Source of the DNA: Caldilineales bacterium
GTDB taxonomy: Bacteria > Chloroflexota > Anaerolineae > J102
DNA: 64,000 nucleotides
Reading direction: 5' to 3'
Assembly: GCA_019695115.1 (NCBI GenBank)
Contig: JAIBAP010000028.1
Location: forward strand, 1 to 64,000
Shown here: piece by piece, positions 5,201 through 49,267 of the stretch
Layout of the letters: the number at the start of each line of letters is the position of its first letter
How positions within the stretch are numbered: position 1 is the first letter of the stretch
Position numbers and translations under genes: made by a program
Notes under the pieces: generated by a model
Seen by the model: the letters and a program-made list of their open reading frames with translations, nothing else
Databases searched by the model: none
What the model was told of the DNA's origin: nothing

Positions 5201-6682
5201 ATGACTGTGTTAGCAAACACTGCCGCCGCCGAGTTGAAGCCGCGCCACGGCTGGCTCAAGAGCGCCAACGTATTCTATGCGCCGGCGACCTTGACCCCCC
5301 TCCTCGAGGAGACGGCTCGCGGCCTTCTCAACGAATTCAGTGTGCTGGGGCACTTCGTGCAGGATGCGCCCAACGACGAAACCACCATCCTGCTCACCAC
5401 CGCTCGCTACGGCGAGAACCTGAACTGGCGGCAGGCGCCGCTGTTCACAGCCCGCGCCCGATACAAACTCGGCCGCCAGCCGACCATCTACACCCTTGTG
5501 CACATCCTGCCCGCCGAGTTGGATGAGCTGCTGGTGCACTTCGAGCAGGCGCTGGCCAAAGACCCACCCGCGCCCGAGGACTTCGAATTCGACGGCCTCT
5601 CGCCGCAGGCCTACCTGGTCCTCACCGAACAGGGGCGCCGGGGCGGGCCGATCCTGTCGGTCTTGCGGCTGTTGCAGGCGCAGCTCAAGAGCATCCGCAT
5701 CTTGCTGGTGGTGGGCGACCAGCACCCCGAATGCGTCTATCACTTCGATCTGGTGGGGGCCTACCCGCGCAGCAGCGCCGATGACCCGGCCGCCTTCTAC
5801 GAGGACATCGCCCTGCGCATGGTGACGACGGTGAGCACGCGCGAGGTCACACAGCACGAGATCGTCGCCGCGCCGCTGCCCTACGAACTCTGGCGGCAGA
5901 GCGGCGCCGCCGAAGCCATGCGCGCCGCCGCCCAGGAGCTTGGCCGCCGCCATTTCTTCACCGAGATGGTGCGCATCGCCGACCTGGTCAACGTGCCGGC
6001 GGTGGGCAGCTCGGTGGCCAGCCAATATAGCGAGGGGTGTTTCGGCACCTGGAGCCTCTCCCTGGACGGCCTGGTGGCCACCATCACCGGCAGCGCCCGG
6101 CCTGTCGATAAAGACAACATCACCGAAGACGAACTGGTGATCATCACCGGCGTGCGACCGGGCGGCGTGGGCGCCTTCGTCCGCCATGTCGAGGGCAAAC
6201 GCAACGACCCGCCCAGCTCCGAGGCGGTGGAGATGATCGACATGGATGTCTTGTTGCCCACCGTCCCCCTCGACCCTGCCTTTGGCGACGCCGCCACAGC
6301 GCCGGTGGTGCGGTCGAAGCTACACGGGCACCGCGGGGTGGCGTCCTACAACCCGGCCAGGGTCGAATACGTCGCCCTCGACCCACCCTATTTCCACTAC
6401 ATCGTCTCTTGCGCCACCGAAGCCCAGGCGCACGGCGTCAAGGGCGCCTTCTCGCGCTCGCAGTCCTTGCTCAACCCCGACGACCCCCGCCAACTGGCCT
6501 TCACCATCCTCCCCGGCCACGGTCTGGTGTTGGCGGAAAAATGGATCCCCGGCAAAGCGCCCTTCCAGGCCATGTGGGAGGCGATGGACGCTGGCGACAT
6601 CGTCATCGAAAGCCATGTCCCGCAGGGGCCGATCGAGTACGTCGGTTCTGGCGACGAGGCGATGGTCTTGCACGAGCTGTAG
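5201..6682 (+). CDS. Conserved-looking protein of unknown function (493 aa)
   Basis: I do not recognise this family. The protein is cytoplasmic in character, with no signal peptide or membrane segment. Notable segments are SVASQYSEGCFGTWSLSLDG near the centre, a following GSARPVD and IITGVRPGG, and a C-terminal half with ILPGHGLVLAEKWIPGKAP. Coding character is strong over the whole frame. The start is taken at the ATG at 5201 because GGAG lies at 5191-5194, 6 nt upstream; an alternative ATG at 5195 has no such site. A 25-bp-arm inverted repeat follows immediately and faces the convergent radical SAM gene. Confidence 0.7.
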   Translation: MTVLANTAAAELKPRHGWLKSANVFYAPATLTPLLEETARGLLNEFSVLGHFVQDAPNDETTILLTTARYGENLNWRQAPLFTARARYKLGRQPTIYTLVHILPAELDELLVHFEQALAKDPPAPEDFEFDGLSPQAYLVLTEQGRRGGPILSVLRLLQAQLKSIRILLVVGDQHPECVYHFDLVGAYPRSSADDPAAFYEDIALRMVTTVSTREVTQHEIVAAPLPYELWRQSGAAEAMRAAAQELGRRHFFTEMVRIADLVNVPAVGSSVASQYSEGCFGTWSLSLDGLVATITGSARPVDKDNITEDELVIITGVRPGGVGAFVRHVEGKRNDPPSSEAVEMIDMDVLLPTVPLDPAFGDAATAPVVRSKLHGHRGVASYNPARVEYVALDPPYFHYIVSCATEAQAHGVKGAFSRSQSLLNPDDPRQLAFTILPGHGLVLAEKWIPGKAPFQAMWEAMDAGDIVIESHVPQGPIEYVGSGDEAMVLHEL

Positions 6683-38157: not shown

Positions 38158-40482
38158 TCAGTGCACCAACGGCAGGTACAGGCCCTCGTGCGGGCCCTCC
38201 GTTGGGGCCAGGCTGCCGGCCGGCGGCAGCACGAACAGGGTGATCGAGCGGGCCGGGAAGCTGGCGCTGAATCCCCCTGAGACCACAGGCTGATCGGCCG
38301 GTCGCTGGATGGCGTTCAGATTGGCGGGGCTATAGCGGTAGACGGCGGCGAGGCCGGCGACAGGCTGGTTGGCGATGGTCAGGCCGGCCGTTTGCGCCGA
38401 ACCCGTCTTGTTGATGACGACCAAAGTCAGGGCGCCGTCGGCGCTCCGTTGGGCGGCGTAGATCGCCAGCTTGGCCTGGTTGCTGCTTGCGGCCTGCACG
38501 CTGACCTCGCCGAACTTGCCATGCTGCCCGTCGTAGTTGCGATACATGCGGAAGGCAAAGGCGCCGGGGCCGGACGAAGTGAAGTTGCCGCCGTCGCCGT
38601 AGGGTGTATCGAACAGCGTCGCCAGATCCAACCCCTCGCGCCCGAAGATGCCCAGGATGTCGGCCTGGGCCAGGGCGCCGTTGATGTGGTCGAGCGCGCC
38701 CCAGTTGTACTCGGTGATCGCCAGCTTCGTGCCGGGATAGTTCTGGGCCACCCATTCGCGCATGCGCGGGATCAGCCGCACGATGCCGCCGTCCGGCCCT
38801 GCCTGGGCGATCCAGCTTTCATCGACATAGGTGGGGTCCCAGAGGGCGCGAGTCGAGCGCAGCCGCAGGGCTTGCAGGCTGGAGTCGCCGGCATCGCGCA
38901 GGGTGACGCCGTTCTGGGGATAGAAATGGAGGTCGAAGTAGTCCAGCAGGCGGACGCCGTGCTGCTGCTCGTAGGCGGCCATCTGCTGCAAATACCAGGG
39001 CGCGAAGGGCGTGCCGCCGTGGGCGTTGCGATCGTCGGGCGTGACCCAATCCTGGCGTTGACCATCCCACGAGCCGTACCAATAGTAGGTCCAGCCCATC
39101 ACCACCGGGCCAAGCGTGCGGGCGGCGGGGTCGGCGGTCTTGATGGCGGCGGCGTAGCGCCAGGTGAGGTCGCGGAACTCGTCGTATTTCCAGGCGATGG
39201 GGTAGACATCGCGATGGGTGTCGAACCAGATGTCGGGTTCGTTGTCCAGACTGTAATACTTCACCCCACCGTTGGCGGCGCTCCCATGCGTCTGCTTGAG
39301 ATGGCCGATCCAGTTGGTGGCGAAGGGTGTATCGATGGCGAGGCTGGTGTCGTGTGGGTCGTTGCCCTGGAAGTAGACCGGGCTGCCGTTCTGGTAGGCG
39401 GTGATGCCGCTGCCGCAGTGCGAGCGGTTGGGGTCGGCGGGGTCGGTGGCGGGTAGGCCGTTGGGGAAGGGTTGCGGGGTGTAGTTATAGATGCGGGTGT
39501 CGAAGCTGCACTGGTAGGTGGCGCTGTTGCCCGCTTGGCCGGGATTGCGGGCCACCCAACCGATCATGGGGATGGTGATGATGCTGTCGGCGCCGATGCG
39601 TTTGCTTTGGGCCACGAACTCGTCGGCAGAGAGGTCGGCATACTCGTTTTCGTAGTACCAATCCGGGTTGCCGAACATGTCGTTTTGCCAGTTGTAGCGC
39701 GTGGTCGAGTTGCCGCCCCATCGACGCACCGGTAGGTCGATCTCGCGGGCAAAGGCTTCGTCGGGGGCGTAGTGGATGCCGTAGATGTCTTCGCTGATGG
39801 GGCGCCGGTTGGCGCTTGCGTCCACGGCCAGGGTCAGGCCGCTGCCGGGGGTGGGGGTAGGCGTGGCGGTGGGCGTGGCGGTGGCGCTGCGGGTGGGAGT
39901 TCGGGTGGGCGTGGCCCCGCGGGTGGGGGTGCGAGTGGGCGTCGCCGTCGAACCGCTCACCGTGATCAGGGCGATGTCATCCAGGTAATAGGCGGGTTGC
40001 GCGCCGCCGGTGGCATCCTGCCAGTAGATCTCGCCGACCGTAGCCGGGCTGCCCAGGCTGCTGAGCGGGGCTTTGATCACTTTCCAGGTGTTGGCGGGGG
40101 CGGTGACGGCGTAGGTCTGGGCGCCGGAGCCGTTGAGCACGACGGTGATGCGTTGGCCGCCCGTGGCGCCGCCGTGGATCCAGAAGCGCAGATGGGTGTA
40201 GCCGGCGGTGTCGATGGGGGTGTTGGCGTGGAAGTACAGCCCGCCCCAGGCGGCAGTGTGGGTCACGGCCAGGGAATTGGCCCCACCGTGGCGCGGGGTG
40301 GCGGCGACGGCGCGGGTGGTGTTCCACGACCAGTCTTGCCACCCGGCTGCCAGCGCGTCGGCATAGATGACCTTGTTGGCCGCGGTCTCGGGCGCCGGTG
40401 CAGCCGCAACCTGCCAGGCCGTGGGCAGGAGGACGGTCAGCACTGCCAGGAGGATGAGGAGGTGTCGGGGCGACGGTTTCAT
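38158..40482 (-). CDS. Secreted glycoside hydrolase family 44-like enzyme with N-terminal carbohydrate-binding module
   Basis: A 774-aa protein. A signal peptide (about 1-28) precedes a beta-sandwich CBM-like domain (about 37-178, VIYADALAAGWQDWSWNTTR, GYTHLRFWIHGGATGGQRIT) and a Thr/Pro linker (about 180-217). The GH44-like catalytic domain (about 218-720) has the acid/base region KYYSLDNEPDIWFDTHRDVY and the nucleophile region TKLAITEYNWGALDH. GH44 enzymes are endoglucanases/xyloglucanases. The C-terminus ends GLYLPLVH, a short LPLV-type tail seen on many Chloroflexota exported proteins. It points to plant polysaccharide degradation. Confidence 0.85.
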   Translation of the reverse strand: MKPSPRHLLILLAVLTVLLPTAWQVAAAPAPETAANKVIYADALAAGWQDWSWNTTRAVAATPRHGGANSLAVTHTAAWGGLYFHANTPIDTAGYTHLRFWIHGGATGGQRITVVLNGSGAQTYAVTAPANTWKVIKAPLSSLGSPATVGEIYWQDATGGAQPAYYLDDIALITVSGSTATPTRTPTRGATPTRTPTRSATATPTATPTPTPGSGLTLAVDASANRRPISEDIYGIHYAPDEAFAREIDLPVRRWGGNSTTRYNWQNDMFGNPDWYYENEYADLSADEFVAQSKRIGADSIITIPMIGWVARNPGQAGNSATYQCSFDTRIYNYTPQPFPNGLPATDPADPNRSHCGSGITAYQNGSPVYFQGNDPHDTSLAIDTPFATNWIGHLKQTHGSAANGGVKYYSLDNEPDIWFDTHRDVYPIAWKYDEFRDLTWRYAAAIKTADPAARTLGPVVMGWTYYWYGSWDGQRQDWVTPDDRNAHGGTPFAPWYLQQMAAYEQQHGVRLLDYFDLHFYPQNGVTLRDAGDSSLQALRLRSTRALWDPTYVDESWIAQAGPDGGIVRLIPRMREWVAQNYPGTKLAITEYNWGALDHINGALAQADILGIFGREGLDLATLFDTPYGDGGNFTSSGPGAFAFRMYRNYDGQHGKFGEVSVQAASSNQAKLAIYAAQRSADGALTLVVINKTGSAQTAGLTIANQPVAGLAAVYRYSPANLNAIQRPADQPVVSGGFSASFPARSITLFVLPPAGSLAPTEGPHEGLYLPLVH

Positions 40483-40868: not shown

Positions 40869-40920
40869 AAGTGCGACGCACGGCAACCTACGGTTGCTCA
40901 GAGGTGCGTCGCACTTTTTT
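40869..40920. repeat. 48-bp palindromic element, copy 2, ending in a T-run
   Basis: This is the reverse-complement form of the element at 25022-25069 with one difference. The outer arms GTGCGACGCAC and GTGCGTCGCAC pair, and a run of T follows directly (40915-40921), so it can serve as terminator for the tRNA just upstream. The T-run overlaps the -35 of the riboswitch promoter. Confidence 0.9.
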
Positions 40921-40947
40921 TGACCCACCGCCGCCTCATGCTATACT
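40920..40947 (+). promoter_or_regulatory. Predicted sigma70-type promoter of the riboswitch operon
   Basis: TTGACC at 40920-40925, a 16-bp spacer and TATACT at 40942-40947. The expected transcription start is within 10 bp, right at the first base of the riboswitch P1 stem (40955). Confidence 0.7.
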
Positions 40948-40954
40948 GCCCTCT

Positions 40955-41072
40955 GTTCCATCAAGAGTGACTGAGGGTAACGGCCCTGGGAAGTCCGGCA
41001 ACCTGCTGCACGAACAAGTTCAGCAAGGTGCCAATTCCGGCTGGCGAGTCGCATCGCCTGGCAAGATGGAAC
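40955..41072 (+). promoter_or_regulatory. SAM riboswitch aptamer (SAM-I/S-box type)
   Basis: P1 is GTTCCATC (40955-40962) paired with GATGGAAC (41065-41072). Internal conserved elements in order are CAAGAGTGACTGAGGG, GGCCCTGGGAAGTCCGGCAA (the kink-turn/pseudoknot region with GGCAACC), AAGGTGCCAATTCCGGC and GCAAGATGGA. These are the S-box landmarks. SAM binding would stabilise P1. It lies between a strong promoter and a terminator, ahead of the moxR-VWA-MAT operon. Confidence 0.9.
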
Positions 41073-41074
41073 GG

Positions 41075-41121
41075 AGGGGGAGCGATCCCCCTGGCCGCCC
41101 CTCGCATCGAGGGGCTTTTTT
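41075..41121 (+). terminator. Riboswitch expression platform: GNRA hairpin plus intrinsic terminator
   Basis: A first hairpin AGGGGGA-GCGA-TCCCCCT (41075-41092) is followed by the terminator GCCCCTCG-CAT-CGAGGGGC (41097-41115) with six T (41116-41121). With SAM bound, transcription should stop here, so the operon is expected when SAM is low. Confidence 0.85.
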
Positions 41122-41160
41122 ATGCCCCGCAAGCCTCCCTTCCTTCGCCCCAGGAGTCCC

Positions 41161-42558
41161 GTGCGAGCGCAATCCTACCTCCGACAGATCGGCGTCTACG
41201 GCTACGACCAAGTCGAAGCCATTGTGCTGGCGGCGCTGATCACCGAAGACCCGCTGCTGCTGATCGGCAAGAGCGGTACCGGCAAAACCTATCTTCTCAA
41301 CAGTTTATCCGAAGCGATGGGCCTGTCCCATCGCCACTACAACGCCAGTTTGATCGCCTTCGATGACCTGGTGGGCTTCCCCTATCCCACGCCCGATCAC
41401 ACCGGCGTCATCTACCTGCCTACGCCTGCCACCATCTGGGGCGCCGAATCGGTGCTGATCGACGAGATCAGCCGCTGCAAACCCGAACACCAGAATCGCC
41501 TCTTCTCCATCCTCTACGAGCGCCGACTCCAGGGCATCCGCGTCGAATCGCTGCGCTACCGCTGGGCGGCGATGAATCCGCCCGCTCTCGACCTGCTGGC
41601 GAGCGAAGATAGCTACAGTGGCTCCGAGGCTCTGGATCAGGCGTTGGCCGACCGCTTCGGCTTCATCGTCGAGACGCCCGACTGGGGTGAGTTGGACGAG
41701 GAAACCCAGATGCTGATCGCCGACCCGCGGGGCGAGGGCGCGTTGTCAGCCGACGGTGGCGCCATCCGGGCCCAGGTCGAAACCGGCCAGGCCCGTTATC
41801 GCCAACTCCTGCTCTCCGGTGCGACTCAAATTGTGGCCGACTATGCCCGCCAGGTAGCCACCTACCTGGGCCAAAACCGGATTCGCATCTCGCCCCGCCG
41901 CGCCCGCCAGTTGGCGCGCAACCTGCTGGCGGTCATGGCTCTGCGCGAGGGAGGGCAGAGCGAGGAAGATTTTCTGCTCGTCCTGCGCTGGAGCCTGCCC
42001 CAGCGGGCCTGGGGTGGGGCCGTCAGCGAAGAAGTGATACGCGCGGCCCATCGCGTCGCCTGGCAGGGAGCCTTCCTGACCGGTCGCGATCGTTGGCTGC
42101 ACGCCTTCGCGCTGGCCGCCAACTTGACCAAACGAGCGCGACTGCTGATCGACGAATGCCCCGACCCCGACGCCGGCAGCCTGGCGGTGGCGCAACTCCT
42201 GGCCAACGCCAGCAAGGAATACGCCGCTGCCTTTGCCCTGGCGGTCTACCCGCTGGCGCTCCAGGGCCGGCTGAACATCGGCAGTGAGGGGGTCAGCGAC
42301 CTGGGCAAAGTGGCCAACGAGGTGCTGGACTTACAGGGCGAACTGAAATGGGAGACGACATGGCGCGCCCCCAACGCCGGCCATCCCGAATACAGCCGCC
42401 TGGCTCAGATTCTGGCTGACCTGCCCAAGCGCCGGCGTGAGCGCGCCACCCAGCTGTTCTACTATTGTCTGATTCACGACATCACTCTGCCTGACCCGGT
42501 CGGGTATGAACGGGAGTTCGAGGCATGTATCGCCTACCTGCGCAGGAAAACCAGATAG
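41161..42558 (+). CDS. MoxR-family AAA+ ATPase
   Basis: A 465-aa AAA+ protein. Walker A is LLIGKSGTGKTYLL (about 34-47), Walker B VLIDEISRCKPEHQNRLFS, sensor-1 region YRWAAMNPPA, and the arginine-finger region LDQALADRFGFIVETPDWGE. The C-terminal third is helical and not recognised. MoxR ATPases act with a VWA partner to remodel or load metal or cofactor into client proteins; the partner is encoded two genes downstream. I chose the GTG at 41161 (AGGAG at 41152-41156) because an ATG at 41122 directly abuts the terminator; that alternative would add 13 residues. Confidence 0.85.
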   Translation: MRAQSYLRQIGVYGYDQVEAIVLAALITEDPLLLIGKSGTGKTYLLNSLSEAMGLSHRHYNASLIAFDDLVGFPYPTPDHTGVIYLPTPATIWGAESVLIDEISRCKPEHQNRLFSILYERRLQGIRVESLRYRWAAMNPPALDLLASEDSYSGSEALDQALADRFGFIVETPDWGELDEETQMLIADPRGEGALSADGGAIRAQVETGQARYRQLLLSGATQIVADYARQVATYLGQNRIRISPRRARQLARNLLAVMALREGGQSEEDFLLVLRWSLPQRAWGGAVSEEVIRAAHRVAWQGAFLTGRDRWLHAFALAANLTKRARLLIDECPDPDAGSLAVAQLLANASKEYAAAFALAVYPLALQGRLNIGSEGVSDLGKVANEVLDLQGELKWETTWRAPNAGHPEYSRLAQILADLPKRRRERATQLFYYCLIHDITLPDPVGYEREFEACIAYLRRKTR

Positions 42559-42998
42559 TCCCCCGCTCCTTTAATTTCGGGCCTCCGCAAGCGCAGCCGC
42601 GCAGCCAAACCCTGCGCTCCACCTTGCTCGGCGACGAACACAAGTTTGCTGCCTGGCCACGACGGCTGCGCGTCGGGTTGATCTTCCCGCCCAAGGTCAG
42701 TCCCCTCGCTTTCATGCTGGCCCTGCTGAAAACCGTCGGTCTGGCATCGCCCCAAGCACTCACCGACCGGGGCTATCCTCTGCCGCTCGAGCGGTTGACC
42801 CTGCGCACGGTTGCCGGCGGGGATGGCTTCTGTGATACCAGCGTCGCCCCGGTCGATGAAATCCTCCACCAAGCCCTGTTGCTGGGGCTGTGCGGCGTTG
42901 CCTACTACGATCCTGTCCGCCCCATCGTCTGGACGAACGCCAGTCTGGGACGCAGGCTGGAGCTCTTTGCCGTCGGAGACTTCTATGCAGATGACTGA
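42525..42998 (+). CDS. Unknown protein between MoxR and VWA genes (157 aa)
   Basis: I do not recognise the family. It overlaps the moxR end by 34 bp and the VWA gene by 14 bp, the pattern of a coupled operon. The sequence is compact and mostly soluble. Visible segments are FAAWPRRLRVGLIFPPKVSP, LRTVAGGDGFCDTS and LHQALLLGLCGVAYYDPVRP. It has two Cys and no known motif. It may be an adaptor specific for this MoxR-VWA system (inference). Confidence 0.7.
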   Translation: MYRLPAQENQIVPRSFNFGPPQAQPRSQTLRSTLLGDEHKFAAWPRRLRVGLIFPPKVSPLAFMLALLKTVGLASPQALTDRGYPLPLERLTLRTVAGGDGFCDTSVAPVDEILHQALLLGLCGVAYYDPVRPIVWTNASLGRRLELFAVGDFYADD

Positions 42999-44307
42999 AA
43001 GCCACTTTCGGGCCATCCTGGCCGAGATGATCGATGAAAACCCGCTGGCCTGTCGGGCCTTGCTACGCCTGGCCGACCTAGAATTCACCGATCAGGTTGA
43101 TACGCTGGCCGTCACTCTGGCAGCGCAACCCCGGTTGTTGGTGAACCTGGGCTTCGTCCGCCAGCATTGCCGGGACGAAAACCACATCAGGGCCGTGTTG
43201 CTGCACGAATTCCTGCACGTGCTACTGAACCATGTCGAGAGATTCACACACGTGGATGACGGCTTGAACTGGGCGCTCGATGTCGTGATCAACGCCCTCA
43301 TCCACCGGTTCTTCGGCCCGACCTACTCCTCGTTCATGAGTACGTACTACACCCATGCCCAAGGCCCCGCCCGGCTGCTGCGACCTATGAAAGCACAAGA
43401 GCCGCTCGCCGACCTGGGTCCCCTGGTAGACATCTGGCGCGGGGTCTACGCCGGCAGTCTCGTGACCGATGACCTCATTCAGATCGCCGACAGCCTGCGC
43501 CCAAGCAGCTTCGCACTGCCGCCCGATCGCATCCTGCTCGGCCAGCACCCCCTGGCCGCGGACGCCGGGCTTGCGGATGAAACTCGCCGCGCCCTCCTCG
43601 ACACACTGCATTCGCTCAACGGCGGCGGTATTTGGCGTTCTGGGCGAGCTCCGGGAATGGGCGACACGACCTTTTGGCGGGCATTGCCGGCGCAGGATGA
43701 ACGCCAGGCACGCTGGGAGCGGACAGCCTGGCGCGCCCTGCGTCAATGCCTGACGCCCGACCCGCGCGCACCCACTGGCACCCATCTCCCGCGATCAATC
43801 CTACTTCCCATCCTCAACCCACGCGACCGCCGCGGCTTCGTGCACAGCCAATGGCATCCCCTGCTCACCGACATGGTTTGGGAAACCACCGAGCGCAGGC
43901 CCGAAGGCTCAGTCCGGGTCTATCTCGATGTCAGCGGTTCGATGGACGCAGAACTCCAGGCCCTGGTCAATCTGCTGTGGCGGCTGCGCGCTGTCATCCG
44001 GCAGCCGTTTTGGGCCTTCAGCGACGCCGTGGCGCCGGCAACGTTCGACCAGGGCAGGCTCCAAACCACTTCCAGCGGCGGCACCTCGATCAACTGCGTC
44101 CTGCGCCATGTCGCCGCCACCCGACCCGGCAAGGCGCTGATCATCACCGATGGGTACATCGAACGATGCCAGCCACGCCTTCTCGCCGCTCTCCGCGGTC
44201 AGACACTGATCGCCATCGTCTCGCGCCACGGCTCGCCGGCGGAGTTGGAGCGCGCCGGCATCCCGGTCATGCAATTGGAGGAGTATTCTCATGCTACGCC
44301 TGGCTGA
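42985..44307 (+). CDS. Zincin-VWA protein (DUF2201-type), MoxR partner
   Basis: A 440-aa protein. The N-terminal putative metallopeptidase domain carries HEFLH at residues 74-78 (AVLLHEFLHVLLNHVERF), that is HExxH followed by another His. The C-terminal VWA domain has a complete MIDAS: DVSGSM at 315-320, a Thr in SSGGTSINCV, and Asp in IITDGYIERC. This is the DUF2201 layout. The start at 42985 has GGAG 6 nt upstream. Its end overlaps the next gene by 17 bp. With MoxR it forms a probable ATP-driven chaperone pair. Confidence 0.85.
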   Translation: MQMTESHFRAILAEMIDENPLACRALLRLADLEFTDQVDTLAVTLAAQPRLLVNLGFVRQHCRDENHIRAVLLHEFLHVLLNHVERFTHVDDGLNWALDVVINALIHRFFGPTYSSFMSTYYTHAQGPARLLRPMKAQEPLADLGPLVDIWRGVYAGSLVTDDLIQIADSLRPSSFALPPDRILLGQHPLAADAGLADETRRALLDTLHSLNGGGIWRSGRAPGMGDTTFWRALPAQDERQARWERTAWRALRQCLTPDPRAPTGTHLPRSILLPILNPRDRRGFVHSQWHPLLTDMVWETTERRPEGSVRVYLDVSGSMDAELQALVNLLWRLRAVIRQPFWAFSDAVAPATFDQGRLQTTSSGGTSINCVLRHVAATRPGKALIITDGYIERCQPRLLAALRGQTLIAIVSRHGSPAELERAGIPVMQLEEYSHATPG

Positions 44308-45388
44308 GGCTGTGCTCGATGGGCATCCCGACAAATTCTGCGACATCCTGGCCGACCGGGTGCTGGCCGCAGGCTACGCCGCCGACCCGGCATGCTACGG
44401 CCAAATCGAGGTAGGCTGCTGGGCCGATGCGATCTGGTTCAGCGGCGCCATCCTCAGCCGCACCCCCATGCGCGAGACGCTGGCCGAGATCGTCCATTGC
44501 TTGGGCCAGGAGATCGGTGCTGGCAGCGAAGGCGCTGCCGACGCCCGGCGCTATCGCATCCAGAACGAGATCTGTTTCGTGCGCGGCGACCCGCGGCCCT
44601 ACAACGCCATCGTCGATGACCAGTGCATCGTTATGGGCTGGGCCGGCTATGACGCCAGCACCCACTACCTGCCTCCCGAGCATTTCCTGGCCCACACTTT
44701 CCGCCAAGCGCTCATCGACGCCTGCCGGGTCGGCCCGCTGCATGGCCGGGGGCCGGACGGCAAGCTGCTGTTGCGACTGTGCGAGGAAGGCAAGCGCTGG
44801 CTGCTGGAGCAGGTGGTCGTGACGCTCCAGCACGGCCCGACCGAGACGCTGGTGGAACTGGCCCAGGCTGTGAGCCAGACCCTAGCCACAGTCTACGCCC
44901 GGCTGCGCGCTGCCGACCGGCGCTGGAACCGCCCCTGGCAGGATGTCGAGCTGCTGGTCAACCCTGGCGGCCCCTTGATCCGTGCCGGGAGCGATGGCGA
45001 CAACGGCCAGACCGGGCGCAAGTTGGTGATGGACTACTACGGCCCACGCCTGGCCATTGGCGGCGGCGCTCTGAGCGGCAAGCACTTGGCCCACATCGAC
45101 CGTATTGCCGCCTATGCCGCGCGCCATGCTGCCGTGGCGGCTGTGGTCACGGGCGCCTCGGCCTGCCAGATCACGCTTGCCTATGCCCCCGGAGGCGACG
45201 AACCGCTCGACGTGCTCTACGACATGGATGGCCGCGGACGCGTCCTCCCCAAAGCGAGCTTGCGGCACAGCGCCATGGTCCGGCGCTACGGGCGAGGTGT
45301 GGACATCGGCCGGCTGGGGCGGGGGACGCACTTTTACGACCTCGGCCTGCCCTGGAACAAGGCGCCTTCTGCAGATATGCTATACTGA
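44291..45388 (+). CDS. Divergent S-adenosylmethionine synthetase-like protein (MAT family)
   Basis: A 365-aa relative of MetK (usually about 384). Retained catalytic elements are GHPDK (11-15), GSDGDNGQTGRK (233-244), GGGALSGK (257-264) with the IDR following (269-271) and YAARHAAV. The GDQG of the substrate loop is DDQC here (109-112), and the end LPWNK replaces FPWEK. It probably makes SAM or a related sulfonium from methionine and ATP, but the altered loop could mean another substrate or a regulatory role. The SAM riboswitch upstream supports a SAM link. GGAGGAG precedes the start. Confidence 0.85.
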   Translation: MLRLAEAVLDGHPDKFCDILADRVLAAGYAADPACYGQIEVGCWADAIWFSGAILSRTPMRETLAEIVHCLGQEIGAGSEGAADARRYRIQNEICFVRGDPRPYNAIVDDQCIVMGWAGYDASTHYLPPEHFLAHTFRQALIDACRVGPLHGRGPDGKLLLRLCEEGKRWLLEQVVVTLQHGPTETLVELAQAVSQTLATVYARLRAADRRWNRPWQDVELLVNPGGPLIRAGSDGDNGQTGRKLVMDYYGPRLAIGGGALSGKHLAHIDRIAAYAARHAAVAAVVTGASACQITLAYAPGGDEPLDVLYDMDGRGRVLPKASLRHSAMVRRYGRGVDIGRLGRGTHFYDLGLPWNKAPSADMLY

Positions 45389-45394
45389 CAGGCG

Positions 45395-45799
45395 ATGACA
45401 AAACAACTGACTGACACATCGGGCCAGGAGACACCAACCTTCGGCCTGACCCTGCTTCTCCCCCCCGACCGCACCCTCCCCTGCCACCACTGCGGCGTCC
45501 GCTTCATCTGGACGGGTTGGGAACAGAGGCTGGATGGGGCCGAGCCGGCCCACTGCCCTGGCTGCCGCCATCTGCTGGCCCTCACCCGCCGGCAGCGCGG
45601 CGCGGTCAAATGGTACGATCGGCGCAAAGGCATCGGCTTCATCACCGCCGCCGACGGCAGCGAGGTCTTCGTCCGCCGTCGGGCGCTGATCTACGGCGCC
45701 GCCCTGCGCCGCGGCCAGCTGGTCGCTTTCCGCGTCGAACCCGCCCCCCAAGGCCCGCAAGCCGTCGAAGTCGAAGCACTGCCAGGCGAAGCGACCTAG
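45395..45799 (+). CDS. Zinc-ribbon/cold-shock-domain fusion protein
   Basis: 134 aa. An N-terminal zinc ribbon with CHHC (30-33) and CPGC (54-57) is followed by a cold-shock domain (about 67-130: [20 protein letters not shown], with RNP2-like EVFVRR). Such proteins bind single-stranded nucleic acid; the zinc ribbon may add a protein or RNA contact. It starts 6 bp after the MAT gene and is likely the last gene of the riboswitch operon. Confidence 0.85.
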
Positions 45800-45837
45800 C
45801 CCGCCATTCTCCCCGCACCACCCCATCTGCTTCTTCC

Positions 45838-45935
45838 CCATCTCCCCGTCTCCCCGTCTCCCCGTCTCCCTGTCTACTTGTCTACTTGTCTACTTCTTCC
45901 TTGTCTACTTCTCCCTTATCTACTCCCTCCCTCCC
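45838..45935. repeat. Pyrimidine-rich tandem words before rnhA
   Basis: Repeats of ctccccgt and then of ctacttgt. The open frame upstream of RNase HI is translation of these words plus the shifted cold-shock gene and is not protein-like. Confidence 0.85.
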
Positions 45936-46398
45936 CATCGTCCACATCTACACCGATGGCGCCTGCCTGGGCAATCCGGGGCCGGGCGCGTGGGCTGCCC
46001 TCTTGCGGTCGGGCCAGCACGAGAAAGAATTGGTCGGGGCTGCCAGCCGCACCACCAACAACCGCATGGAAATGCGGGCCGCCATCCACGCCCTCAGCTC
46101 CCTCAAACAACCGTGCCAGGTCTATCTGCACACCGATTCCGAGTACCTGCGCAACGGAATCAGCCAATGGATCCACAACTGGCAGCGCAACGGCTGGCGT
46201 ACAGCCGACAAGAAGCCGGTCAAAAACAAAGACCTCTGGCAGGCGCTCTTGTCGGCCCTGCAGCCGCACCAGGTGCAGTGGGATTGGGTCAAGGGCCATG
46301 CCGGGCATCGCGACAACGAACGAGTGGATGTCCTGGCCAACACCGCCGCCCACACTCAGGCCGCCGCTGCCTCTCCCGACCTGGATCCTCTGCACTGA
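45901..46398 (+). CDS. rnhA: Ribonuclease HI
   Basis: A 165-aa RNase H fold with all four acidic catalytic residues in place: [44 protein letters not shown] and [18 protein letters not shown]. It cuts the RNA strand of RNA-DNA hybrids. The frame continues upstream through simple sequence and the cold-shock gene in another frame, which is not real. No ATG precedes the fold, so TTG at 45901 is the likeliest start (a TTG at 45886 is also possible). Confidence 0.85.
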
Positions 46399-46539: not shown

Positions 46540-48393
46540 ATGACACCCATGATCAATTACCCCAACAACCTCAAACACGATCGACTCCGCGCCTGGGTGG
46601 ACGAAATGGCCGTCCTGTGCAAGCCCGACCGCATCCACTGGTGCGACGGCTCGGATCAGGAATATGACGAGCTCTGCGAGCAGCTCGTGCAGGCCGGCAC
46701 CTTCGTCCGCCTGAACCCGGAAAAACGCCCGAACAGCTATCTTGCCCTCTCCGACCCCAGCGACGTGGCTCGGGTCGAAGACCGCACCTTCATTTGCAGC
46801 ATCAACCCCCGCGACGCCGGCCCCACCAACAACTGGGTGGATCCGAACGAAATGCACGCCACCCTCAACGGCCTCTTCGATGGCTGTATGGCCGGGCGCA
46901 CCATGTACGTCATCCCCTTCAGCATGGGGCCGCTTGGCTCCCACATCGCCCAGATCGGCGTCCAACTCACCGACTCGCCCTATGTGGTCGTCAACATGAA
47001 AATCATGACCCGCATGGGCCGGCAGGTGTGGGATGTCCTGGGTCGGGAAGGTTTCTTCATCCCGTGCATGCACAGCCTGGGCGCCCCCCTGGCTCCCGGC
47101 CAAGACGACGCTACCTGGCCCTGCAATCCCACGGTCAAATACATCGTCCACTTCCCCGAAGAACGCGCGATCTGGTCCTATGGCAGCGGCTATGGCGGCA
47201 ACGCCCTGTTGGGCAAGAAGTGCCTGGCCCTGCGCATCGCCTCGGTCATGGCCCGCGACGAAGGCTGGCTGGCCGAACACATGCTGATCATGGGCGTGCA
47301 GTCGCCCGACGGCGAGAAGACCTACGTGGCAGCCGCCTTCCCCAGCGCCTGCGGCAAGACCAACTTCGCCATGCTCATCCCGCCCAAGTCCTTTGCCGGC
47401 TGGAAAGTGACCACGATCGGCGACGACATCGCCTGGCTGAAGCCGGGCAACGACGGCCGTCTCTACGCCATCAACCCCGAAGCCGGTTACTTTGGCGTGG
47501 CCCCTGGCACCTCCGAAAAAACCAACCCCAACGCCATGGCCTCCATCCGGGCCAACACCATCTTCACCAACGTGGCTCTGACCCCGGACGGCGATGTGTG
47601 GTGGGAGGGCATGACCAAGACCCCGCCGCCCGAGCTGACCGACTGGCAGGGCAAGCCGTGGACGCCCGACAGCGGCCGCAAAGCCGCCCATGCCAACGCC
47701 CGCTTCACCGCCCCCGCCAGCCAGAACCCCGCCATCGACCACGAATGGGAGAACCCTGACGGCGTCCCCATCGACGCCCTCATCTTTGGCGGCCGCCGCA
47801 GCAATGTGGTGCCCTTGGTCCTTCAGGCCACGAACTGGAACTACGGCGTCTATCTGGCCGCCACCATGGGGTCCGAAACGACGGCCGCCGCCTTCGGGCA
47901 GGTGGGCGTGGTGCGCCGCGACCCCTTCGCCATGCTGCCGTTCTGCGGCTACCACATGGCCTCCTACTTCAACCACTGGCTCAACATCGGCCGCAACATC
48001 GGCCGGCCCCCGCGCATCTTTGGCGTCAACTGGTTCCGCACCGACAAGGATGGCAAGTTCCTGTGGCCGGGCTTTGGCGAGAACATGCGGGTGCTGAAGT
48101 GGATCGTCGAAAAATCCCGCGGCAAGGCCAAAGCCGTCGAAGGCCCGCTGGGGCGGATGCCGCACTACGAGGATATGGACTGGACCGGGCTGGAGAACTT
48201 CAGCCGCGAGCAGTTCAACGCCATCATGTCCGTCGACCGCCAACAGTGGATCCAGGAAGTGCTCTCGCACGAGGAGCTGTTCCTCAAGCTCTACGACCGC
48301 CTGCCCAAGGAGCTGATCTTCCTCAGAGAGCTGATCCTTTCCTCGCTCTGGCGCTCGCCCGAAACGTGGGAGCTGGCGCCTGAAAGCGCCTAG
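46540..48393 (+). CDS. pckG: Phosphoenolpyruvate carboxykinase (GTP)
   Basis: A 617-aa GTP-type PEPCK. The nucleotide loop [19 protein letters not shown] contains the reactive Cys; the metal site lies near [12 protein letters not shown]; the substrate-binding segment is [20 protein letters not shown]; the guanine pocket region is [18 protein letters not shown]. It interconverts oxaloacetate and PEP, serving gluconeogenesis from acetyl-CoA-derived carbon. It is monocistronic or linked with cooC (94 bp). Confidence 0.95.
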
Positions 48394-48487
48394 CTCCGAC
48401 CGGCTGGCCTGAACGCTGGGGCGAGGCCCCTCCTGGCCGCATCACACTCGCGCCCCAGCCATCCTCCTCCGCCAGCAGAGATTTGCC

Positions 48488-49267
48488 GTGAAACTCGCCA
48501 TTTCGGGCAAGGGCGGCGTGGGCAAGACCACCCTCGCCGCCCTGCTTGCCCAAACCTTCGCCGACGCCGGCCGCGACGTGCTGGCTGTCGACGCCGACCC
48601 TTCCCCCTGCCTGGCTCAGGCGCTCGGCTTCCCCCCCGACCTGCGCGCCCGGCTACGGCCCATCGTCGAGATGGACGCCCTGATCGAAGAACGCACGGGC
48701 GCCAAACCGGGCGCGTTCGGCGGCTTCTTCAGCCTCAACCCGCGCGTCGATGACCTCCCCGACCGTTTCAGCGTCCGGCACCGCGGGGTGCGGCTGTTGG
48801 AGATGGGCGGCATCGAGCAGGGCGGCTCCGGCTGCATCTGCCCCGAAAGCGCCATGCTCAAGACCTTGTTCACCCATCTGCTCTTTCGCAAGGACGACGT
48901 ACTCATCCTGGACATGTACGCCGGGGTGGAGCACCTGGGCCGGGCGACGGTGGACTTCGTCGATGCCATGCTGGTGGTGGTCGAACCGACGCGGCGCAGC
49001 CTGGGCACGGCGGCGCAGATCAAGCAACTGGCCCACGACATCGGTCTAACGCGGCTGTGGCTGGTGGGGAACAAGGTGCGGGGGGCCGAGGAGGAGGCTT
49101 TTCTGCGGGCCGAGGCCCCTGGTTTGCCCGTTCTTGGCTTCCTGCCTGCGGACGACGGCGTGCTGGAGGCCGACCGGTTGGGCTTACCCGCCTATGATCA
49201 CGTCCCCGCCCTGCGCCAGGCGGCCCTCGACATCATGGCGCAGATGGCGAAAGCCGACAAAGCCTAG
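48488..49267 (+). CDS. cooC: CO dehydrogenase nickel-insertion ATPase CooC
   Basis: A 259-aa MinD/ParA-type ATPase. The deviant Walker A is AISGKGGVGKTTLAALLA, the signature VLAVDADPSPCLAQALG follows, and the metal-binding CxC of CooC is SGCICPESAM. DVLILDMYAGVEHLGRAT is the Walker B region. It loads nickel into the CODH C-cluster. It starts with GTG at 48488. In many genomes it sits next to cooS; here it is about 15 kb away. Confidence 0.9.
   Translation: MKLAISGKGGVGKTTLAALLAQTFADAGRDVLAVDADPSPCLAQALGFPPDLRARLRPIVEMDALIEERTGAKPGAFGGFFSLNPRVDDLPDRFSVRHRGVRLLEMGGIEQGGSGCICPESAMLKTLFTHLLFRKDDVLILDMYAGVEHLGRATVDFVDAMLVVVEPTRRSLGTAAQIKQLAHDIGLTRLWLVGNKVRGAEEEAFLRAEAPGLPVLGFLPADDGVLEADRLGLPAYDHVPALRQAALDIMAQMAKADKA

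Follow-up and report, generated by a model that had tools for sequence, protein, structure and literature searches.

A rare gene cassette linking a MoxR ATPase and a VWA protein to a divergent SAM-synthetase paralogue, often preceded by SAM riboswitches

S-adenosylmethionine (SAM) is the main methyl donor of the cell, and we know of no AAA+ machine that acts on SAM synthetase. In a stretch of 64,000 nucleotides from a Caldilineales bacterium of the Chloroflexota (assembly GCA_019695115.1, contig JAIBAP010000028.1, positions 1 to 64,000; hereafter the window) we found a SAM riboswitch in front of a compact operon, in which a MoxR-type ATPase, a small protein of 157 amino acids (P157) and a metallopeptidase-like VWA protein are encoded together with MAT', a divergent paralogue of SAM synthetase. 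The four genes recur in the same order in other phyla. Based on sequence comparisons, we give about even chances to the reading that they form a SAM-shortage module, in which the MoxR-VWA machine would remodel or activate a dedicated enzyme of the SAM-synthetase family. If MoxR-VWA does service a SAM synthetase, this would be an unexpected client for this chaperone class. The features of the operon are given below.

40920..40947, + strand: sigma-70-type promoter-like site, TTGACC-16-TATACT with TG (10/12 matches; shuffled sequences give 0.0)
40955..41072, + strand: SAM-I riboswitch aptamer (RF00162; 69.5 bits, E 3.6e-14, cut-off 44.4)
41073..41095, + strand: G/C-rich hairpin in the interval between aptamer and terminator (from folding and reading of the sequence)
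41097..41121, + strand: intrinsic terminator-like element with stem 41097-41115 and T run 41116-41121
41122..42558, + strand: MoxR-type AAA+ ATPase, 478 amino acids (open reading frame (ORF), AAA_5 match, relatives in related loci)
42525..42998, + strand: P157, 157 amino acids (ORF; folded domain 45-150, disordered N-terminal tail)
42985 or 42991 (both ATG)..44307, + strand: protein with a metallopeptidase-like part (HExxH, DUF2201_N) and a VWA domain (DxSxS)
44291..45388, + strand: MAT', divergent SAM-synthetase paralogue, 365 amino acids (Pfam and NCBIfam matches, alignment, tree)
45395..45799, + strand: zinc-ribbon/cold-shock-domain protein (CSD, 44.0 bits)

A promoter, an S-box aptamer and a terminator had been proposed here in a first-pass annotation of the sequence, and all three were confirmed. 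The aptamer has a predicted folding energy of -51.1 kcal/mol and is one of four SAM-I riboswitches in the source genome, and a terminator-like stem followed by six T is expected 0.2 times in shuffled sequences. The GAGGGG of the hairpin could pair with the CCCCUC of the terminator and so form an antiterminator. The T run ends directly at ATG 41122, and a GAGGGG within the 3' arm of the terminator is a possible ribosome-binding site for this start; therefore the leader could act on both termination and translation. The start of MoxR is uncertain, and may be ATG 41122 or GTG 41161, the latter behind AGGAG. MoxR and P157 overlap by 34 bp, P157 and VWA by 14 bp (8 bp with the second ATG) and VWA and MAT' by 17 bp, with a 6-bp gap from MAT' to the cold-shock gene, exactly as in the coordinates of the first-pass annotation. 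The layout supports a single transcription unit under the SAM riboswitch.

In a scan with one genome per species, relatives of MAT' were found at 30 loci, which by record names and tree labels fall into Pseudomonadota, Myxococcota, Kiritimatiellota, Gemmatimonadota, Armatimonadota, Bacteroidota, Rhodothermota, Spirochaetota, Verrucomicrobiota and Elusimicrobiota, plus one delta-proteobacterium. In all 22 loci whose sequence includes MoxR and its upstream side, the order MoxR, small gene, VWA, MAT' was kept, with MoxR of L018 and MAT' of L031 interrupted by frameshifts; in most related loci VWA shares 4 bp with MAT'. The remaining loci (L011, L012, L021, L028 and L033-L036) are truncated at contig ends, incomplete or fused. 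The conserved order in other phyla supports the earlier suggestion that the MoxR/VWA pair is tied to a divergent SAM synthetase. That suggestion had comprised five genes, four of which recur together, whereas tblastn gave no relative of the cold-shock gene in the 30 related loci, some of them without downstream sequence, and this gene was rejected as a member for its lack of recurrence. By this comparison the conserved unit is MoxR, P157, VWA and MAT', and the cold-shock gene is a local passenger. At L033:6909-8435 a single reading frame joins MoxR to the C-terminal part of MAT', as though the intervening stretch were missing, possibly by a true deletion or through faulty assembly; a SAM-II core motif lies upstream of the fusion (6236-6333).

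Judged from the genomes searched, the cassette is rare and patchy across many phyla. Only the window's own genome passed a threshold of E 1e-40, both among 400 genomes of its phylum and among 20 of its order, and in the phylum of the Cnuella genome 2 of 296 genomes passed, the Cnuella genome counted. Transport of the cassette as plasmid or phage cargo was also considered and rejected, as among the matches listed there were only metK-type genes or unnamed places, at an identity of at most 31%, and viral contigs gave no relative.

Riboswitches were counted over 23 MAT' cassettes, that is the window and the 22 loci with the upstream side of MoxR. An Rfam SAM riboswitch above cut-off was found at most 500 bp upstream of MoxR in 13 of them, namely SAM-I in the window, SAM-II in L010 and L022, and SAM-I/IV in the rest. 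With signals below cut-off, own models and motifs included, the number was 18 of 23. The five additional loci are L009 (two SAM-II at 34.2 bits, cut-off 36), L032 (39.3 bits, cut-off 41.1), L027 (72 bits with our own model; nearly a copy of L026), and L015 and L024, both with a SAM-II core motif that had no matches in shuffled sequences, and in L015 also with an own-model match. Our SAM-II model R1 is mostly a sequence model because it contains only five base pairs. A weak signal at L008 (31.1 bits, E 0.54) stands outside the 18, and the count excludes a SAM-II motif in L020, which lies upstream of MoxR at a distance of 4 kb, beyond ORFs on the opposite strand. In L015, L022 and L024 the 3' end of the SAM-II element enters the ribosome-binding site of MoxR, which GCTAAA adjoins. 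Two elements can stand in series before one MoxR, as at L014:2317-2653 with a SAM-II motif and then a SAM-I/IV aptamer, and L016 has three SAM-I/IV aptamers. SAM-II is not related to the RNAs of the SAM-I clan, and therefore SAM control was gained more than once. That riboswitches of three kinds have been captured repeatedly speaks strongly for the SAM level as input, and with such a likely input the system is open to direct testing.

MAT' scored above cut-off with S-AdoMet_synt_C (73.2 bits) and S-AdoMet_synt_N (33.7 bits) and below it with the central domain (27.7 bits, cut-off 29), and at 126.5 bits it did not reach the cut-off of the metK equivalog TIGR01034 (309.4). Its predicted structure (predicted local distance difference test (pLDDT) 86.5) resembles solved SAM synthetases with a template modelling score of about 0.8. 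The ordinary metK of the source genome lies on another contig and is 33% identical to MAT'. A true metK above cut-off was present in 22 of 24 cassette genomes; none was found in the genomes of L015 and L016, where a contig may be missing. Among the outcomes that would speak against its proposal, the first-pass annotation had named one in which MAT' is the only, ordinary metK and has no conserved MoxR neighbourhood in relatives. We found a separate metK and a conserved neighbourhood, and the score below cut-off, the separate metK and the residue losses described below exclude MAT' as the sole, ordinary metK.

In the tree, which was built without L012, L028 and L033, MAT', the second SAM-synthetase-like group MAT'' described below and MetK formed three supported clades (100/99, 99/97 and 100/100), with the linked MetKs inside MetK; the tool warned of long branches meeting between MetK and MAT'. 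Residues were compared over 26 MAT' rows, with the partial or fused L028 and L033-L036 omitted; alignment A2, with 24 rows, additionally omits L027 and the frameshifted L031. H29, D31, E57, D179, K181, D258, R264 and K265, which belong to the phosphate, magnesium and dimer set, are invariant in all 26 rows, and K285 and D291 are kept in all 25 rows with letters at those columns. By these comparisons MAT' is distinct from the housekeeping SAM synthetase. The genomes G422 (L011/L012), G425 (L015) and G420 (L009/L035) have two MAT'-type copies each, some of them partial.

Additionally, a profile of the VWA protein was searched against 1,086 genomes from the phyla of the window, L032 and L020. Matches were found in 14 genomes, the three centre genomes among them; the window's phylum contributed six distant relatives and that of L032 further ones, and the 398 genomes of L020's phylum gave no match besides the centre genome. 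A gene of the SAM-synthetase family adjoins VWA or MoxR in 12 of the 14, or in 9 of 11 without the centre genomes; one of these is G1411, in which two contig ends each carry a part of the VWA gene and the MAT-like gene lies beside one half. This count is free of bias from a MAT query because it starts from VWA. At the two matches without such a neighbour, L049 and L084, no SAM riboswitch was seen.

This search revealed a sister system in which MoxR, a small protein and VWA go with MAT'', the second SAM-synthetase-like clade. In L047 the small protein shares the NxGGP motif with P157, and the P157 profile gave no match to it. Four MAT'' rows keep most of the MAT' invariant set, with R264 replaced by Lys. 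SAM riboswitches stand before MoxR in L048 (65.2 and 58.6 bits), L051 (51.9 and 36.4) and L085 (47.6), and L047 has a weak signal there (36.1 bits). In L081 and L082, P157 and MoxR and VWA of the first type are found with a near-canonical second MetK in place of MAT' (480-502 bits with the MetK model built here; the main metK lies elsewhere). The second MetK of L081 lies 30 bp before the MoxR ORF, and a weak aptamer-like match lies upstream (20.3 bits). Ordinary-type MetKs were also seen beside MAT' cassettes, at L030:1025-2167, L035:382-1572 and L007:2-1138; those of L030 (Elusimicrobiota) and L035 (Pseudomonadota) cluster in the tree (93/96), as if travelling with the cassette.

A simpler explanation would be mere local operon packing, in which a spare metK with ordinary S-box control has MoxR and VWA as unrelated neighbours. 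S-box control of metK-type genes is indeed common, but the same four genes stand in the same order at 22 related loci in many phyla, two deep subfamilies exist, the VWA-based search led to MAT-type neighbours in 9 of 11 genomes, and MAT' falls far under the metK cut-off. We therefore consider this explanation very improbable.

The window MoxR matched PF07728 (AAA_5; 40.6 bits, cut-off 22) and has the Walker motifs GKSGTGKT and VLIDE, conserved over 22 aligned rows; with the bpMoxR model it scored 21.5 bits (cut-off 27). The VWA protein matched DUF2201_N (PF13203) at 23.5 bits, barely above the cut-off of 23.2. The H, E and H of its HExxH motif and the DVSxSM columns of its metal-site motif DxSxS are invariant in all 19 rows, and the VWA domain forms the C-terminal end of the protein in the aligned rows. 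Pfam VWA models fall short on it (CoxE-like 17.4 bits, cut-off 26.4). P157 had no match in Pfam or NCBIfam, and its predicted model had no similar fold in PDB or BFVD. Residues 45-150 of this model are confident (pLDDT mostly >90) and the N-terminal tail is of low confidence. The NxGGPxSR motif of the family sits in this tail, and the conserved tail of such a small partner could serve as a handle for the MoxR ring.

In the SAM-shortage module that we favour, low SAM would allow the riboswitch to permit expression of the operon, and the VWA protein and P157 would recruit the MoxR ring to remodel the co-translated SAM-synthetase-family protein. The CbbQO machine acts on Rubisco in such a way, and remodelling could likewise mean assembly of the enzyme or its release from a dead-end ligand. 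The enzyme would then run a MAT-type triphosphate chemistry and, in parallel with the housekeeping MetK, supply SAM or a close adenosyl product. As a guess, cleavage of the client or of an inhibitor may be the task of the metallopeptidase domain. MAT' can be replaced by MAT'' or by a second MetK while the machine is kept, so that the synthetase appears as the constant partner and the probable client; this replacement is the best argument for a client role.

Several observations weigh against this reading. Gene neighbourhood is no proof of a chaperone-client relation. The riboswitch of L013 lies 1.4 kb upstream of MoxR, and none stands near MoxR in L007, L020 and L030; in L007 and L030 a linked MetK stands upstream in its stead. 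At L082 and L083 no riboswitch was found either. Over 18 loci, after manual removal of L018 and L031 for their frameshifts, MoxR, P157 and VWA agree closely in their pairwise distances (rho 0.83-0.94; VWA with MoxR 0.94), whereas MAT' tracks its partners less tightly (rho 0.64-0.68; with VWA and MoxR 0.64-0.66), and the housekeeping MetK is only somewhat below MAT' (rho 0.45-0.55). The window MAT' groups with the delta-proteobacterial MAT' (95/93). These results are consistent with the cassette being passed on as one unit, to which MAT' is somewhat less tightly bound. Finally, by residue roles as given for human MAT in excerpts of PMC7271947 and PMC6850014, MAT' has lost methionine- and adenine-contact residues. 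E70 is kept in none of the 26 rows, His replaces K289 in 25 of 25, Q113 is kept in 2 of 26 at a loosely aligned place, R249 is kept in no row, with Pro in its place in 24 of 26, and F250, which stacks on adenine, is kept in 4 of 26. Of the twelve catalytic residues listed in the excerpt of PMC7271947, nine are kept in MAT', while E70, Q113 and K289 are lost or replaced. With these losses MAT' may not make SAM at all, and they argue that many MAT'-type enzymes are not plain SAM makers. A client role and a product that is not simply SAM can both hold.

These residue losses bear directly on a rival explanation, according to which MAT' makes a different product. It would run an ATP- or NTP-dependent reaction resembling adenosyl transfer on a non-methionine acceptor and yield a SAM analogue or a signal nucleotide; MoxR-VWA-P157 would be a maturation or target machine, and SAM would gate the system because the product replaces or monitors SAM. 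The triphosphate and metal residues are invariant while the methionine-side (E70, Q113, K289) and adenine-side (R249, F250) contacts, as assigned in those excerpts, are lost, the MAT' and MAT'' clades are separate from MetK, and a true metK is retained in nearly all cassette genomes, all of which speaks for this explanation. However, plain SAM supply fits better at the two loci with a near-canonical MetK in the same setting, D258, which in the excerpts contacts the methionine amino group, is retained, and the pocket stretch 239-258 is poorly predicted in the MAT' model. We hold a different product to be possible but rather unlikely. A fuller form of this idea would be a new system of SAM homeostasis, spread broadly but sparsely, with a SAM-synthetase activase, in which the MoxR-VWA-metallopeptidase with P157 services paralogues that have rebuilt pockets and a non-SAM product, and the set is gated by SAM riboswitches recruited independently from classes of unrelated structure; we put it forward only tentatively. 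If the product of MAT' is not SAM, it would be a new cofactor or signal wanted by cells during SAM shortage.

The rarity and patchiness of the cassette across many phyla also bring a defence function to mind, in which a loss of SAM caused by phages or other elements, through SAM lyases or a block of MetK, would induce a resistant back-up synthetase with its remodelling machine. The placement of the riboswitches would suit a response to SAM loss, and, by the title of structure 8bb1, a complex of the T3 SAM lyase with SAM synthetase has been solved. However, PADLOC 2.0 gave no match for P157, VWA or MAT', only generic ATPase matches of up to 22.6 bits for MoxR, and a CSD_V match for the cold-shock gene. 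Among 105 neighbouring ORFs no clear defence islands were seen, with no control set run; the families listed for them include three UvrD-type helicases, one McrBC and one AbiEii. These ORFs represent most of 120 listed by script, plus two added by hand, and the set left out very long ORFs, linked MetKs, some doubtful ORFs and one phosphorylase ORF. A scan of viral contigs found no relative of the cassette on any of them, and the partner is constant, with no turnover of effectors. Defence is thus possible but improbable, with no positive evidence from the neighbourhood.

Downstream of the window operon, low-complexity CCCCGTCTC and TCTACTTG repeats (45820-45935) separate it from the next ORF, which begins near 45940 and which we take to be RNase H-like. 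The window neighbours at 38158-40482 (- strand) and 46540-49267 (+ strand) comprise a GH44 glycoside hydrolase, a GTP-type phosphoenolpyruvate carboxykinase and a P-loop ATPase, presumably CooC-like. Near related cassettes, small acidic proteins with a zinc-like CPxC...CxH motif are encoded at L007:1171-4793, L025:3712-4590 and L082:1319-1801, and a separate SAM-I/IV riboswitch belongs to the gene in L025. Immediately upstream of MoxR or MetK, at L032:3488-3946, L081:2352-2759 and L082:2195-2464, there are short ORFs with a HHLWxNNGxWWIH-like pattern, and we assume that they resemble the arm-binding end of tyrosine recombinases. Upstream of the cassettes at L007:1861-2577 and L025:2719-3459 there are phosphorylase-superfamily (PNP_UDP_1) genes, possibly for methylthioadenosine/S-adenosylhomocysteine nucleosidases.

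RavA-ViaA, CbbQ-CbbO and NorQ-NorD are MoxR-VWA remodelling pairs. As in these systems, the cassette encodes a MoxR ATPase and a VWA protein together with a candidate client enzyme, but here the candidate belongs to the SAM-synthetase family, and the small NxGGP protein, the HExxH motif in the VWA protein and the control by SAM riboswitches set the cassette apart. The first-pass annotation knew of no described system with this combination, and in line with this the open-access literature searched, which excludes subscription papers, held no description of MoxR/VWA with a SAM synthetase or a SAM riboswitch. In the excerpt of a 2004 paper in which MetK, MoxR and riboswitch all occur (PMC545781), MoxR appears only in a list of Fur sites. 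The nearest described architecture is that of the MoxR-vWA ternary conflict systems, with MoxR, vWA and a third conserved protein (Kaur et al. 2020, PMC7159879), for which VMAP and iSTAND are examples. By the excerpts of that paper, a defining feature is a variable effector fused behind the vWA, which the cassette VWA lacks, and S-adenosyl is mentioned there only for radical-SAM enzymes; the cassette differs further in its constant MAT partner, its metabolite control and a P157 without Pfam match. MAT' shares with MetK (TIGR01034) the MAT fold, the three domains and the phosphate and magnesium residues, and is unlike it in its score (126.5 vs 309.4 bits), the loss of methionine- and adenine-contact residues and its separate clade. 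Similarly, the aptamers resemble known SAM-I, SAM-I/IV and SAM-II riboswitches, with scores above the Rfam cut-off, and lead into a terminator in the window or into the ribosome-binding site at SAM-II loci. Unlike the usual SAM riboswitches, however, those of the cassette govern MoxR-VWA-MAT genes instead of a gene for methionine biosynthesis or transport.

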